DNA of 64,000 nucleotides from Pleurocapsa sp. FMAR1 (GTDB lineage: Bacteria; Cyanobacteriota; Cyanobacteriia; Cyanobacteriales; Xenococcaceae), in assembly GCF_963665995.1 (NCBI RefSeq), contig NZ_OY762512.1, positions 1,550,001-1,614,000 of the forward strand, read 5' to 3'. The position numbers and the translations under genes were made by a program. This document shows, piece by piece, positions 20,570 through 64,000 of this stretch (positions within the stretch are counted from its first letter, which is position 1; each line of letters begins with the position of its first letter). The notes beneath the pieces are model-generated. The model searched no databases, was not told the origin of the DNA, and saw only the letters and a program-made list of their open reading frames with translations.

Positions 20570-21267
20570 TGAAACTGACCTCCATAAATTGTTTTAACGT
20601 AACTTAAATTAAACTGACAGACTTAAAATTCTTCTTCTGTATGTATCGCTTGTTTTTGATAACTAGTACTAATTAGCTGCAATTAATAATTAATATTGAT
20701 CTTATTAAAGTTTTGTTTATGCAGGATGAGTAACCTAAGTACCGAATAATCCTATCATAATGTTTCAATCATGATGAGCTAAGGTTTACAGTCTGCAATA
20801 AGTATTTGTCTAAAGCTTCTTAAAATAGAAAGCTAAAGAAGAAAAAATGTAGCTCTGGCGATAGATATACTATTATGACTATTGACTGATAGGGAAAAGC
20901 TGTTAAAAATCATTCTAATGAGCAACAATACAGTACAAAAAAACTAATTTTGTTCTCAAACATCAATTAAGTATTGCATTTTTTAACCGCTAAAGGCGGT
21001 CAACGGCAAGCGCTGCATCGGAGCGCGTTCCCTTGCTAGGTGAGCATTCCCTTGCGTCTTACGCCGACGCGGGGTCTCACCTCTGTCGGCGACGCGGTGA
21101 AGCAGTGCGGTCTTGGGGGTTTCCCTCAATGAGCAACTGCTGAACCCTTTAGGGGGTCGCTCCTCCTTTGCAAGGCGGTGTAACGCTGACTTTACTTTAA
21201 GCTAGTCCCTATAAAGATCCACAATAGAATCAATATCAATTAAATAGTTTTGGGATAGAAGCAGGAA
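20570..21267. other. Divergent intergenic region between asd and tig with a composite repeat
   Basis: About 700 bp. The asd side (20570-20985) is AT-rich with no gene seen. The tig side holds a GC-rich composite repeat (20986-21180). The last 85 bp should contain the tig promoter and ribosome-binding site. The repeat stands out by base composition from everything around it. Confidence 0.6.
20986..21180. repeat. Composite intergenic repeat, copy D (reverse orientation)
   Basis: GC-rich block. Its reverse complement shares a framework with the copy at 50588-50829: GAGCGACCCCCTAAAGGG, then CACCGCGTCGCCGACAGAGG, then CAAGGGAATGCT and CCTAGCAA-GGGAACGCGC. Between the first two framework pieces it carries its own hairpin with ends AGCAGT and ACTGCT. 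Where the 50.8-kb copy has a 45-nt hairpin, this copy reads straight through, so it looks like an empty site. Confidence 0.75.
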
Positions 21268-42016: not shown

Positions 42017-43239
42017 TTAAACTCTTAAGCACTTTAATTCCGAAATTTTGATAAACGAAATGGCATCATAGTATTTTCTTCTAGCCTTTGAAGATGCAAA
42101 ACAGGGCAAAGTATTTTGAGAAAATAAAGGTGTAGGGTCAAACAAACTACGACCTTTATGTAAAACTCCTTTGAGCCATCTGATCCCAATTTTGAGATAA
42201 CTTAAACCTCTCTCCCAATGCCGATCTACTTGACTTCTAAGTCCCTTCAATTGAACTGTCATGCCATGAGTAGTCGCAAATAAAAGTGCTAAGGCTACCA
42301 CCAAATATAAACGTTCCAATGCCTTGCGATCGCGACCTCGACAGTCCCTTCAACGCGGGAAACCCGCGCAACGGGCTGTCTGGCAATTTTAGATTCTTCC
42401 AATTGAAAAGCTCCAGATTTAGAATCTAAAAATAATTCTTCAATACGAAATCTTAGAGCCTACTGCCATAAAGCTTGTAGAGTCGGGTCTTCATCAGTAA
42501 TAACAGCCCAAGGTTCTTTTGTCCCCTTGACATTGGCTAAGACAAAGTTGCTTCGGCATTCTCCATCGAGCCATAGTCCAACATTGTGATACAAAATCGC
42601 CTCTGACTTTGGCGGATAAAGATATTTCAGTTCAATAGGATGTCTCCTTGCCCCCTGAATAGTTACGTCACAGGGTAAGCGTAGACAATAGTGCCATTGA
42701 CTAGTGGTGAGCCAATTCATCAACTGATGGTTGGCAAAACCTCGGTCAGCTAGAAGCATCTCATCAGGATACTTGCGGAGTAATCTACGTGAAAATTTCA
42801 GCATGGTTTTGTATTCTTTGAATGCTACTGTTGAACTTTTATGTTCCATTACTTTCCATAAGAAAGGAATTGCCCTACCACCACAAATCACAGAAAGATG
42901 AATCATGCAGTATCGATTCCATAAAACTGTTGTATCCAGTGCCAGATAGAGGCGTTGTCCACTCCAGTTACTAATTGCCGCCATTACTAGAGGTACATAC
43001 AGAGATTTGACTTTAATTCGACTGTTATGAACGAATCTTTGCCATCTTCGCTCAATACTCTGTGCTTGGTTCGCCCTACTTATCACGTAAGATTCCCACT
43101 CACTAAGGTTAATTTTGCTGCTACATATCAGCGCGTTGATCATCCAAGCTAACGCTTTGATCTGCCTGAAATCTCTGTATGTGGAATCTTGACTCAGTAG
43201 ACTCAGCAGTTGATGATAAAGAGGGGTAGATCTTGACAT
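42017..43239 (-). pseudogene. Degraded IS4-family (DDE) transposase
   Basis: From 43239 the frame encodes a transposase N-terminus with catalytic-region 'LALDTTVLWNR' and 'MLLADRGFANHQ', ending 'LWQ' at TAG near 42459. The same frame then continues 'ALRFRIEELFLDSKSGAFQL', the family's conserved Glu region. A 41-bp palindrome interrupts it at 42340-42380, and the rest, 'ALERLYLVVALALLFATTHG', goes on in another frame to 42017. Two lesions, so no active product. Confidence 0.88.
42340..42380. repeat. 41-bp mobile-type palindrome inside the transposase gene
   Basis: Arms GACAGTCCCTTCAACGCGGG and CCCGCGCAACGGGCTGTC are near-complementary. The arms match those of hairpins at 50609-50697, 50768-50808 and about 63879-63964. 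The unit lies in the middle of otherwise continuous transposase coding sequence, so it is a later insertion. Confidence 0.78.
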
Positions 43240-50381: not shown

Positions 50382-50608
50382 GGTATTCTAACTCCTTACT
50401 AATTCGATCAAAAGATATTCCATCCTTAATTTGCGTCATAATTGACCCCAAGAGAAACATCTTGTAACAAGATGCAACATAATTAAGAAGGAAACTTAAG
50501 AAAAAACTGGATGAAACTAGGAGAAAATTACACAATTGACAGATTCTTAAATCGACGATTGATAATTTAACCTAAATAAATATAGACGAGCGACCCCCTA
50601 AAGGGTTC

Positions 50609-50697
50609 GACAGTTCCTTCAACAGCGCGATTATTCAAGCGGAACTAAATTCCGCGAATCTCGCGCTCAAGTCGGTAAAACCGCCCAACGGACTGTC
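50609..50697. repeat. Hairpin unit B1 (89 nt)
   Basis: Ends GACAGTTCCTTCAAC and AACGGACTGTC are the conserved arms. The interior holds further palindromes (GCGCGA/TCGCGC, GCGGAA/TTCCGC). It occupies slot 1 of the framework, where copy D has a different hairpin. Confidence 0.75.
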
Positions 50698-50767
50698 TCA
50701 CCGCGTCGCCGACAGAGGTCAGACCCCGCGCCGACGCAAGGCGCAAGGGAATGCTGACCTAGCAAAC

Positions 50768-50808
50768 GCCAGTTCCTTCAACGGGTTACAGACCCGCAAC
50801 GGACTGGC
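50768..50808. repeat. Hairpin unit B2 (41 nt), filled site
   Basis: Arms GCCAGTTCCTTCAACGGG and CCCGCAACGGACTGGC. Copy D of the framework reads CCTAGCAAGGGAACGCGC without this unit, so D is its empty site. Confidence 0.78.
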
Positions 50809-50871
50809 TTGGGAACGCGCGAGGAATGTGCTAAGACTTTCATCCTTGTTTAATTCAAAAATATATAGTAA

Positions 50872-62619: not shown

Positions 62620-63909
62620 ATGATGAACAGTTTGGCTACAGGGTTAGCGATCGCTTTATGCTCGGTACTATGGGTAGAGTTTGTCAGAGATTTTTATCAT
62701 GTTTTGTCCCATCTCTGGCAGCCTTTATATCGTCTTCACATATGGCATCATAAGGTTTTTCGCCGCGACCTCTCCGTTGTTAGCGACACCATTTATCGTC
62801 AGGCGCATTGGTACAATGATGTGCCTGAATCTTTAGTGATGCTGCTGTTGAGTATTTTGCCTTGGAGTCTGGTTTCTGCTTGGGATCTTGCTCCTCAATG
62901 GGCAGCTTGGGCTGGATCTTTCTATACTCTGAGCTTTTTAATAGGCGCGATCGCTCGTGGTTTAGGTATTCCCTTTGTTGACGAGCTTACGGACATTACC
63001 CATCGTCCAGGAGAATTTACTACTCTGCCTTCTCGCTGGCTGGTAAATCGTCCTTACCATTGGCGACATCATTTTGATAACCAGAATGCCTATTTTTCTG
63101 GCACGTTAACGCTTGTAGATAAACTGTTAGGGACAGCACTGTCCTTGAAAAATAAGCGGATAGCGGTTACTGGTGCATCGGGTACTTTAGGCAAGGCTCT
63201 ATTAACCCAGCTACATTTAGCAGGGGCAAAAGTTACCGCTTTTACTTCATCTAATACTGACATTACCTTAAATGTTTCAGGGGAAGATCTGGCTATCAAA
63301 ACCGTAGCTTGGCAAATTGGCAAAGAAGCAGAATTACTAACCTTCTTAGAGCAAATCGATATTTTAATTATTAATCATGGGGTGAATGTTCACGCTCAAA
63401 GAGACGAAGCTGCGATCGCTAAATCCTATGAAGTTAACACTTTCTCGACTCTACGGCTGATGGAGCTATTTTTTCAAACCGTTAAAAGCGATCGCGACAT
63501 GATCACAAAAGAAGTGTGGGTAAACTCCTCAGAAGCAGAAGTAAACCCAGCCTTTAGTCCCTTATATGAGCTAAGTAAAAGAGCGACAGGAGATCTTGTA
63601 ACCATGCGTCGCTTAGATGCTCCCTGTGTCGTGCGTAAGCTCATTTTAGGGCCGTTTAAAAGTCAGCTAAACCCTGTAGGTATCATGTCTGCTAATTGGG
63701 TAGCCAAACAAATTGTTAATTTGGCACGCAGAGATTTCCGTAATATAATCGTGACCATTAATCCTCTTACTTTTATCCTTTTTCCCATCAAAGAACTTTG
63801 GGTTGCTAATTACTTTCGATTCTTTACAGCCACCACAACCAAAGTTGCTCAAAAGCGGTCAGACCCCCTAAAGGGTTCAACAGTTCCTTCAACGGGACGA
63901 GGCTTATAA
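62620..63909 (+). CDS. Fatty-acid-hydroxylase-like and short-chain dehydrogenase fusion
   Basis: 429 residues. Residues 1-170 are a sterol desaturase/fatty acid hydroxylase-like membrane domain with His clusters 'HIWHHKVFRR' (40-49) and 'YHWRHHFDNQ' (147-156). Residues about 178-400 are an SDR domain with 'VTGASGTLGKAL', 'ILIINHGVNVHA' and the 'SPLYELSKRATGDL' Tyr-x-x-x-Lys site. This fused layout is annotated in cyanobacteria as bifunctional sterol desaturase/SDR. The last 18 or so residues ('KRSDPLKGSTVPSTGRGL') are encoded by the repeat starting near 63860, so the native C-terminus has probably been replaced. Confidence 0.85.
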   Translation: MMNSLATGLAIALCSVLWVEFVRDFYHVLSHLWQPLYRLHIWHHKVFRRDLSVVSDTIYRQAHWYNDVPESLVMLLLSILPWSLVSAWDLAPQWAAWAGSFYTLSFLIGAIARGLGIPFVDELTDITHRPGEFTTLPSRWLVNRPYHWRHHFDNQNAYFSGTLTLVDKLLGTALSLKNKRIAVTGASGTLGKALLTQLHLAGAKVTAFTSSNTDITLNVSGEDLAIKTVAWQIGKEAELLTFLEQIDILIINHGVNVHAQRDEAAIAKSYEVNTFSTLRLMELFFQTVKSDRDMITKEVWVNSSEAEVNPAFSPLYELSKRATGDLVTMRRLDAPCVVRKLILGPFKSQLNPVGIMSANWVAKQIVNLARRDFRNIIVTINPLTFILFPIKELWVANYFRFFTATTTKVAQKRSDPLKGSTVPSTGRGL

Positions 63910-64000
63910 AGGGCGGACGCAGGTTCCGCCCACAGCCCCTTAGAAACCTCCGCAACGGACTGTCTCACCGCGTCGCCGTTAGAGGGCAGACCCCCTAAAG
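63860..64000. repeat. Composite intergenic repeat, copy C, running off the window
   Basis: Framework pieces CAGACCCCCTAAAGGGTTC and CACCGCGTCGCC surround a hairpin at about 63879-63964. A second ACCCCCTAAAG begins at the very end, suggesting a tandem copy beyond the window. Its first part overlaps the 3' end of the fusion gene. Confidence 0.78.
63879..63964. repeat. Hairpin unit C1
   Basis: Ends AACAGTTCCTTCAACGGG and CGCAACGGACTGTC are the family arms; the interior (GGGCGGA...TCCGCCC palindrome) differs from B1, which fills the same slot in copy B. Confidence 0.72.

Follow-up and report, generated by a model that had tools for sequence, protein, structure and literature searches.

The genomes of Nostoc punctiforme and its relatives reportedly carry dispersed, apparently mobile repeats of 21-27 nt, the SDRs. 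These repeats are said to lie inside tandem heptamer repeats, with some of them nested in their own copies, and to show compensatory changes in their hairpin; movement through an RNA intermediate has reportedly been suggested for them. In the papers through which we cite the original work (Elhai et al. 2008, as cited in PMC3116915 and PMC2884548), SDRs appear as very small, heptamer-associated mobile repeats of cyanobacteria. The REP/REPIN elements with their RAYT transposases are likewise short imperfect hairpins in many copies, for which mobility as single-stranded DNA has been proposed (PMC3116915, PMC3733652). Volvox organelle DNA contains short palindromic repeats, including palindromes within palindromes (PMC2670323), and the Rickettsia palindromic elements are palindromic repeats that lie in frame inside protein genes (reviewed in PMC10969869).

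Here we describe two families of small hairpins, F1 and F3, found through three composite repeats in a 64,000-nt stretch (the window, positions 1550001-1614000) of the closed 5.43 Mb chromosome of Pleurocapsa sp. FMAR1. We are confident that they are nested mobile hairpin elements, and we favour the reading that they are DNA hairpins of very small size, mobile but not autonomous, which insert into each other and are moved in trans as folded single-stranded DNA. The SDRs are the nearest known kind: like them, F1 is very small, dispersed and apparently mobile; when looked for, units within tandem heptamer repeats and units nested in their own kind were both found, as were compensatory changes backing the hairpins of both families. 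F1 differs from the SDRs in its length (40-42 nt, or 51-57 nt with flanks, against 21-27 nt), its invariant unpaired T, its use of a second covarying family, F3, as an insertion site, its in-frame gene insertions, and its Pleurocapsales-type host family. We do not assign F1 to any named SDR family; the present work adds the two-family architecture, the invariant unpaired T, a set of insertion rules, genuine empty sites, insertions in frame within genes, and the host range in this family. F1 resembles REP/REPIN elements as a short imperfect hairpin in many copies, but lacks the GTAG or CGTC tag and the inverted-pair (REPIN) unit; in F1/F3 nesting is the rule and the number of units is unrelated to the number of Y1 genes. 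Between the Volvox ptDNA motif TCCCCTTTAGGGA, with its TTTA/TAAA loops, and the CCCTTTAGGG flank of one class of F1 unit (alpha, below) there is a likeness that is probably coincidence, and the organelle stem-loops have no described unpaired T or covarying two-part stems. F1 shares palindromic repeats and in-frame gene insertions with the Rickettsia elements, which differ in being single elements of about 150 bp with a conserved peptide, and for which nesting is not reported in PMC10969869.

A preliminary description of the window had proposed that its three composite repeats share two framework blocks with a different hairpin between them in each copy. All three repeats were found at the positions it gave, each with both block A (GACCCCCTAAAGGGTTC) and block B (CACCGCGTCGCC): on the forward strand at 50592-50608 and 50699-50710 in copy 1, on the reverse strand at 21142-21158 and 21088-21099 in copy 2, and on the forward strand at 63862-63878 and 63966-63977 in copy 3, where a further block A starting at 63989 indicates that the composite continues beyond the end of the window. 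Chromosome-wide there are 36 exact copies of block A and 49 of block B, and none of either reversed control pattern. A slot was defined as an A site (up to 2 mismatches, n=55) with a B block no more than 330 nt downstream. By this definition 44 of the 55 A sites open a slot, and the 44 slots hold 42 different contents of 42-307 nt; short slots of equal length have a mean identity of 70% and a minimum of 40%. The unlike hairpins seen in the window are therefore found genome-wide, as opposed to one slot sequence everywhere or a framework present nowhere else. The end pairs given for the three hairpins were correct in substance, except that the third slot starts with AACAGT and not GACAGT, and these slot-end palindromes are the insert's own stem.

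The framework itself consists of the two halves of a dispersed element, F3, joined to the fixed flanks of an inserted unit, so that two hairpin elements meet within each block. An empty F3 site in the genome reads AGGTCAGACCCCGCGTCG..., and a filled one reads AGGTCAGACC-CC-( CTAAAGGGTTC-hairpin-TCTCA )-CC-GCGTCG; the sequence AGGTCAGACC^CC^GCGTCG exists in the genome both with and without a 58-nt insert. Comparison of filled and empty sites thus shows how each block is made up: in block A the left half-site GACCC is followed by the insert's head, and in block B the insert's tail is followed by the right half-site CCGCGTCGCC. GACCC and CCGCGTCG are parts of the F3 host hairpin, and CCTAAAGGGTTC and TCA are the flanks of the inserted F1 hairpin. 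F3 is about 45 nt long; its outer stem varies, while the GACCCC / AAGGGAAYGC interior that it encloses is conserved. Uninterrupted F3 is represented by 28 distinct sequences among stretches of the host genome and 41 overall, and its outer stem changes freely yet stays paired (GGTCA/TGACC, GGTGC/GCACC, GGTGA/TCACC, GGAAA/TTTCC, GGGCA/TGCCC, GCAGC/GCTGC), with 172 of 195 arm positions paired, whereas 2000 shuffles of the arms never gave more than 136. The suggestion of a platform for palindromes accordingly holds insofar as small palindromes do enter a fixed place which different ones occupy, but the framework is not a dedicated platform; as for exchange within the slot, the larger contents are mostly nested insertions into the insert, whereas mixed arms (AACAG/CTGTC) suggest that some exchange takes place.

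All simple slots are filled by variants of the F1 hairpin, a unit of 40-42 nt in which a 5-bp stem, an unpaired T in the 5′ arm and a second stem of 3-4 bp carry a GC-rich core hairpin (inner core about 23 nt). Three flank types can be told apart: alpha (CCC-loop-GGG-TTC ... TCA, about 57 nt), beta (CAxCCTC ... TCG, 51-52 nt, sited before CAA) and gamma (AC ... TT/TC). In an alignment of 19 hand-picked units, 10 of the 11 pairs show two-sided changes and a one-sided change was seen once. An F1 covariance model has 131 matches in the genome (E up to 0.01). Among 77 distinct units from the host genome and from relatives in five genus-level groups, the T at 5′-arm position 6 is present in 76, a count partly conditioned by the model having been built on T-containing units, with scores of 28-62 bits leaving room for units that lack it. 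The stems of these units hold Watson-Crick pairs in 595 of 616 cells, together with 5 G-T and 6 A-C cells; the lower stem is paired at 304 of 315 positions and the upper at 181 of 189, against shuffled-arm maxima of 241 and 109. A blind scan of 311 kb for bulged hairpins found 199 with a 5′ bulged T against 118 in shuffled sequence, but G was enriched too and the signal is too diluted.

These stems bear on an RNA route that we consider unlikely, in which a reverse transcriptase acting in trans would return transcribed hairpins to DNA by reverse transcription or reverse splicing. The units are compact and strongly folded, reverse transcriptases occur in 27 of 27 genomes of the family, and unit number is weakly correlated with reverse transcriptase number (Spearman 0.41, p 0.036), though the correlation with genome size is just as strong (0.45). 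However, the stems of F1 exchange one Watson-Crick pair for another, hardly ever show G-U, and have no excess of G-U over A-C on one strand, which sets them apart from stems selected as RNA; because G-T and A-C are equally rare, there is no sign that either strand is selected as RNA, and the scarcity of wobble intermediates argues against such selection. Nor was a poly(A) or 5′ truncation signature seen.

In the window, the two families are assembled into each other at several levels. The host F3 of copy 1 (50587..50824, forward strand) reads CGAGC-GACCCC...GGGAACGC-GCGAGG and carries three inserts; its outer arms, unlike those of most other F3 copies, do not base-pair, and an uninterrupted F3 with the same arms exists elsewhere (AAAACGAGCGACCCCGCGTCGCCGTAAGGCGCAAGGGAACGCGCGAGG). 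Its GACCC^CCGCG site is occupied by an alpha F1 (50597..50700, forward strand) with head CCTAAAGGGTTC, hairpin GACAG-T-TCC...GGA-CTGTC and tail TCA, an assignment that rests on empty and filled pairs, the slot table and covariation. The loop of this alpha unit in turn holds a 48-nt hairpin of the AGCGCGATT...AATCTCGCGCT family (50619..50666, forward strand), which recurs against the empty site GACAGTTCCT^tcaa^GTCGGGG, and a similar nested insert is found at 5020700. A second, complete and covarying F3 (AGGTCA...TGACCT; 50716..50760, forward strand) sits in the loop of the first, and a gamma F1 (AC-GCCAG-T-TCC...GGACTGGC-TT; 50766..50810, forward strand) enters the host F3 at AGCAA^GGGAACGC, where the covariance model matches at 50768-50808 with 50 bits; gamma-class insertions of this kind also occur in relatives (loci L217 and L248-L250). 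Several further unrelated hairpin families, each adding exactly 48 nt net, are inserted at other loci of the host genome; two examples, TTGAGGCGAGGAAACGCCCCCGTTTAGGGGGCTTGTTCCACTCGCCTG and TTGCGGGAGGAAATGCTCCCGTGTAGGGAGCATATTCCACTCCCGCGG, appear to be related to each other, with covarying stems and a fixed GGAAA...TTCCA interior.

Copy 2 lies on the reverse strand (21020..21163), and the outer arms of its host F3, GGAGC/GCTCC, pair perfectly across the inserts. These are an alpha F1 (21098..21153; model match 21101-21141) with head CCTAAAGGGTTC, hairpin AGCAG-T-TGC...GCACTGCT and tail TCA, and a nested second F3 (AGGTGA...TCACCT, inner stem GCGTC/GACGC; 21038..21082), both on the reverse strand. 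Copy 3 occupies 63857..64000 on the forward strand and continues for about 85 bases past the end of the window, where its host F3 (GGTCA...TGACC) is completed. Its alpha F1 holds a nested hairpin (ACGAGGCTTATAAAGG...AGCCCCTTAG), and an incomplete F3 follows that carries another alpha F1. Copies 1 and 2 are intergenic. An open reading frame at 62620-63909, resembling a fused fatty-acid hydroxylase and short-chain dehydrogenase, terminates within copy 3, so its last residues (SDPLKGSTVPSTGRGL) are supplied by the element. Elsewhere in the genome, beta units (51-52 nt) lie in the loops of alpha units, and alpha units (56-57 nt) lie in the cores of other units.

Outside F3 and other F1 units, F1 is found between heptamer repeats, at palindrome centres and in protein genes, with alpha units in unique or simple DNA located in heptamer repeats and at exact palindrome centres. 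One palindrome form, GTAGGGGCGNNNCG/CGNNNCGCCCCTAC, has been entered by alpha units precisely at its centre, at four loci or more (L286, L302, L309, L310). Beta junctions have CAA in 29 of 29 cases (TTG on the other strand), as the class filter itself required, and alpha junctions show only a weak G/C preference. At the junctions examined, no target-site duplication was evident and none of fixed length was present, with the caveat that beta insertions before CAA could conceal a degenerate 3-nt duplication. When alpha units are removed from heptamer repeats, periodicity across the junction is kept at 126 of 203 positions with nothing dropped, against 29-59 for shifts of 1-4 nt; the register is therefore continuous, and no stretch of 1-4 nt is duplicated. 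A 7-nt duplication would be invisible within heptamers, but is excluded by the palindrome centres and by a phage prohead protease-capsid gene, in which a 57-nt alpha unit is inserted in frame with the reading frame left open, and where removal of the unit restores the host GCGCGA^TAAG with at most one ambiguous duplicated base. We also considered a MITE of a DDE transposase and rejected it because the junctions lack a fixed-length target-site duplication, the capsid gene allowing 1 nt at most.

Besides the capsid gene, whose empty site is likewise known from relatives, two further cases can be read against empty sites in relatives. Copy 2, which lies in the spacer of asd and tig, is an insertion specific to its lineage: the element is absent from the 11 relatives in which this spacer could be delimited. 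The gene of an AddA-like UvrD/PDDEXK repair helicase (L161 102-2900, reverse strand, chromosome about 710167) contains a beta-in-beta insertion of 102 nt (34 codons), which is in frame, keeps the reading frame open, is missing from 10 of 10 aligned relatives, and has a junction that can also be read as a 3-nt duplication (AAG). Within the window, a beta F1 (42340..42380, forward strand) lies inside a transposase gene (42017-43239, reverse strand) that resembles cyanobacterial transposases from plasmid records and has a stop upstream in this copy. This unit (chromosome 1592340) recurs with equal score and identical flanks at 92410, 1739286, 1862085, 2567848, 3826981 and 3895414. The unchanged flanks at six other chromosomal places indicate that the unit travels with the transposon, and, given the stop in the window copy, that spread took place in trans after the insertion. 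Several relatives carry identical units at sites unrelated to each other, which points to recent movement. F1 and F3 are mobile in the evolutionary sense, insert cleanly, nest, and bear a structure-first signature.

The same observations weigh on the proposal that dedicated mobility is absent, and that homologous recombination, gene conversion or hairpin template switching spreads the copies and swaps their interiors. Chimeric arms do occur (AACAG/CTGTC in 15 slots, and GTGCC/CTGCT), arms and cores are mixed as modules, copy 3 shows a local duplication in the form of an 82-nt repeat, and the flank blocks are long enough for short-homology exchange. However, the clean insertions in unique gene and spacer sequence have no homology to the element, and simple template-switch repair of quasi-palindromes would erase the unpaired T, so its preservation in nearly every unit argues against this route; as a full account, we regard recombination as improbable.

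Mobilisation at the level of DNA by something that recognises structure seems to us plausible, at slightly less than an even chance, and its most likely form is the in-trans mobilisation of folded single-stranded DNA by a putative bulge-reading enzyme. In this scheme the substrate would be a folded single DNA strand, and the putative enzyme, supplied in trans, would recognise the hairpin through its unpaired T. The folded unit would then be joined into single-stranded or hairpin-forming DNA, for which lagging-strand gaps, the loops of earlier copies, palindrome centres and short tandem repeats are the candidate targets. If this is right, such joining explains both the Russian-doll structure and the missing duplication. 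The units show no replichore strand bias (permutation p 0.80), and a strictly lagging-strand mechanism might show one. Integron attC sites are likewise folded single-stranded DNA with extrahelical bases. We also considered an autonomous element, but in one relative (G006), where an inverted pair of identical units is separated by 2.3 kb, the interval holds ordinary genes only and no transposase.

Y1 (HUH) transposases read extrahelical bases and make no duplication, which makes them the obvious candidate for the enzyme, and F1 and F3 could then be REP/IS200-IS605-type elements moved by a Y1 transposase such as RAYT. The hairpin with its extrahelical base, the lack of a clear duplication and the fixed short sequence adjoining beta insertions (on the other strand, 3′ of a TTG that the class filter had itself demanded) would agree with this, and two of the 7 Y1 genes in the genome (928596 and 3230362; L142 and L140) lie about 1.5 kb or less from element clusters. 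Against this, the hairpin foot lacks the GTAG/CGTC tag and is flanked by TTC/TCA, CTC/TCG or AC/TT, the alpha junction preference is weak, no paired units were seen in the immediate flanks (250 nt) of the seven Y1 genes, and the gene at 928596, which has an element cluster downstream, has a decayed N-terminus. Unit number does not track Y1 number across 27 genomes (Spearman 0.22, p 0.27), and one genome (G011) has 14 units with one marginal Y1 match. We therefore doubt that a Y1 system of this type moves the hairpins. Returning to the bulge-reading enzyme, we tentatively suggest a distinct transposition system, used by both F3 and F1, which would move DNA hairpins of about 50 nt by way of one extrahelical T in a Watson-Crick-covarying stem and insert them without duplication, preferring the loops of earlier copies and so building hierarchical hairpin trees. 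It is highly improbable that these are conserved functional RNA elements such as terminators or riboregulators kept by selection at each locus, since, for all the strong folding (as DNA, z = -3.9 for copy 1 and -2.4 for copy 2) and the intergenic position of the first two window copies, an Rfam covariance search of the window matched, above the gathering score, a tRNA alone and no family at the element, relatives lack the element in the same spacer, units lie within protein genes and a transposon, and nesting destroys any fixed RNA architecture.

These elements bear on how sequences far too small for coding spread in bacterial genomes. The genus offers many clean insertions, with sites left empty in as many as 11 sister species and identical copies at unrelated sites, and these events, together with the structural signature of an invariant unpaired T in freely covarying stems, put direct tests of the enzyme and of the substrate strand within reach. 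In-frame insertion combined with hitch-hiking on transposons also shows how proteins can acquire short additional peptides. The F1 model matches 25 of 27 genomes of the host's family (0-113 units each, E up to 0.001), and the host's genus-level group includes Waterburya agarophytonicola KI4 and Pleurocapsales LEGE 10410. Across the phylum, 22 of 244 sampled genomes match (E up to 1e-5), nearly all of them from one further family with genomes of 5-8 Mb, probably the Nostocaceae, whose units likewise have the unpaired T and in several cases lie between heptamers such as CTCTGCG. A search of plasmids for near copies returned one Stanieria plasmid, with a 59-base core that overlaps a transposase annotation.
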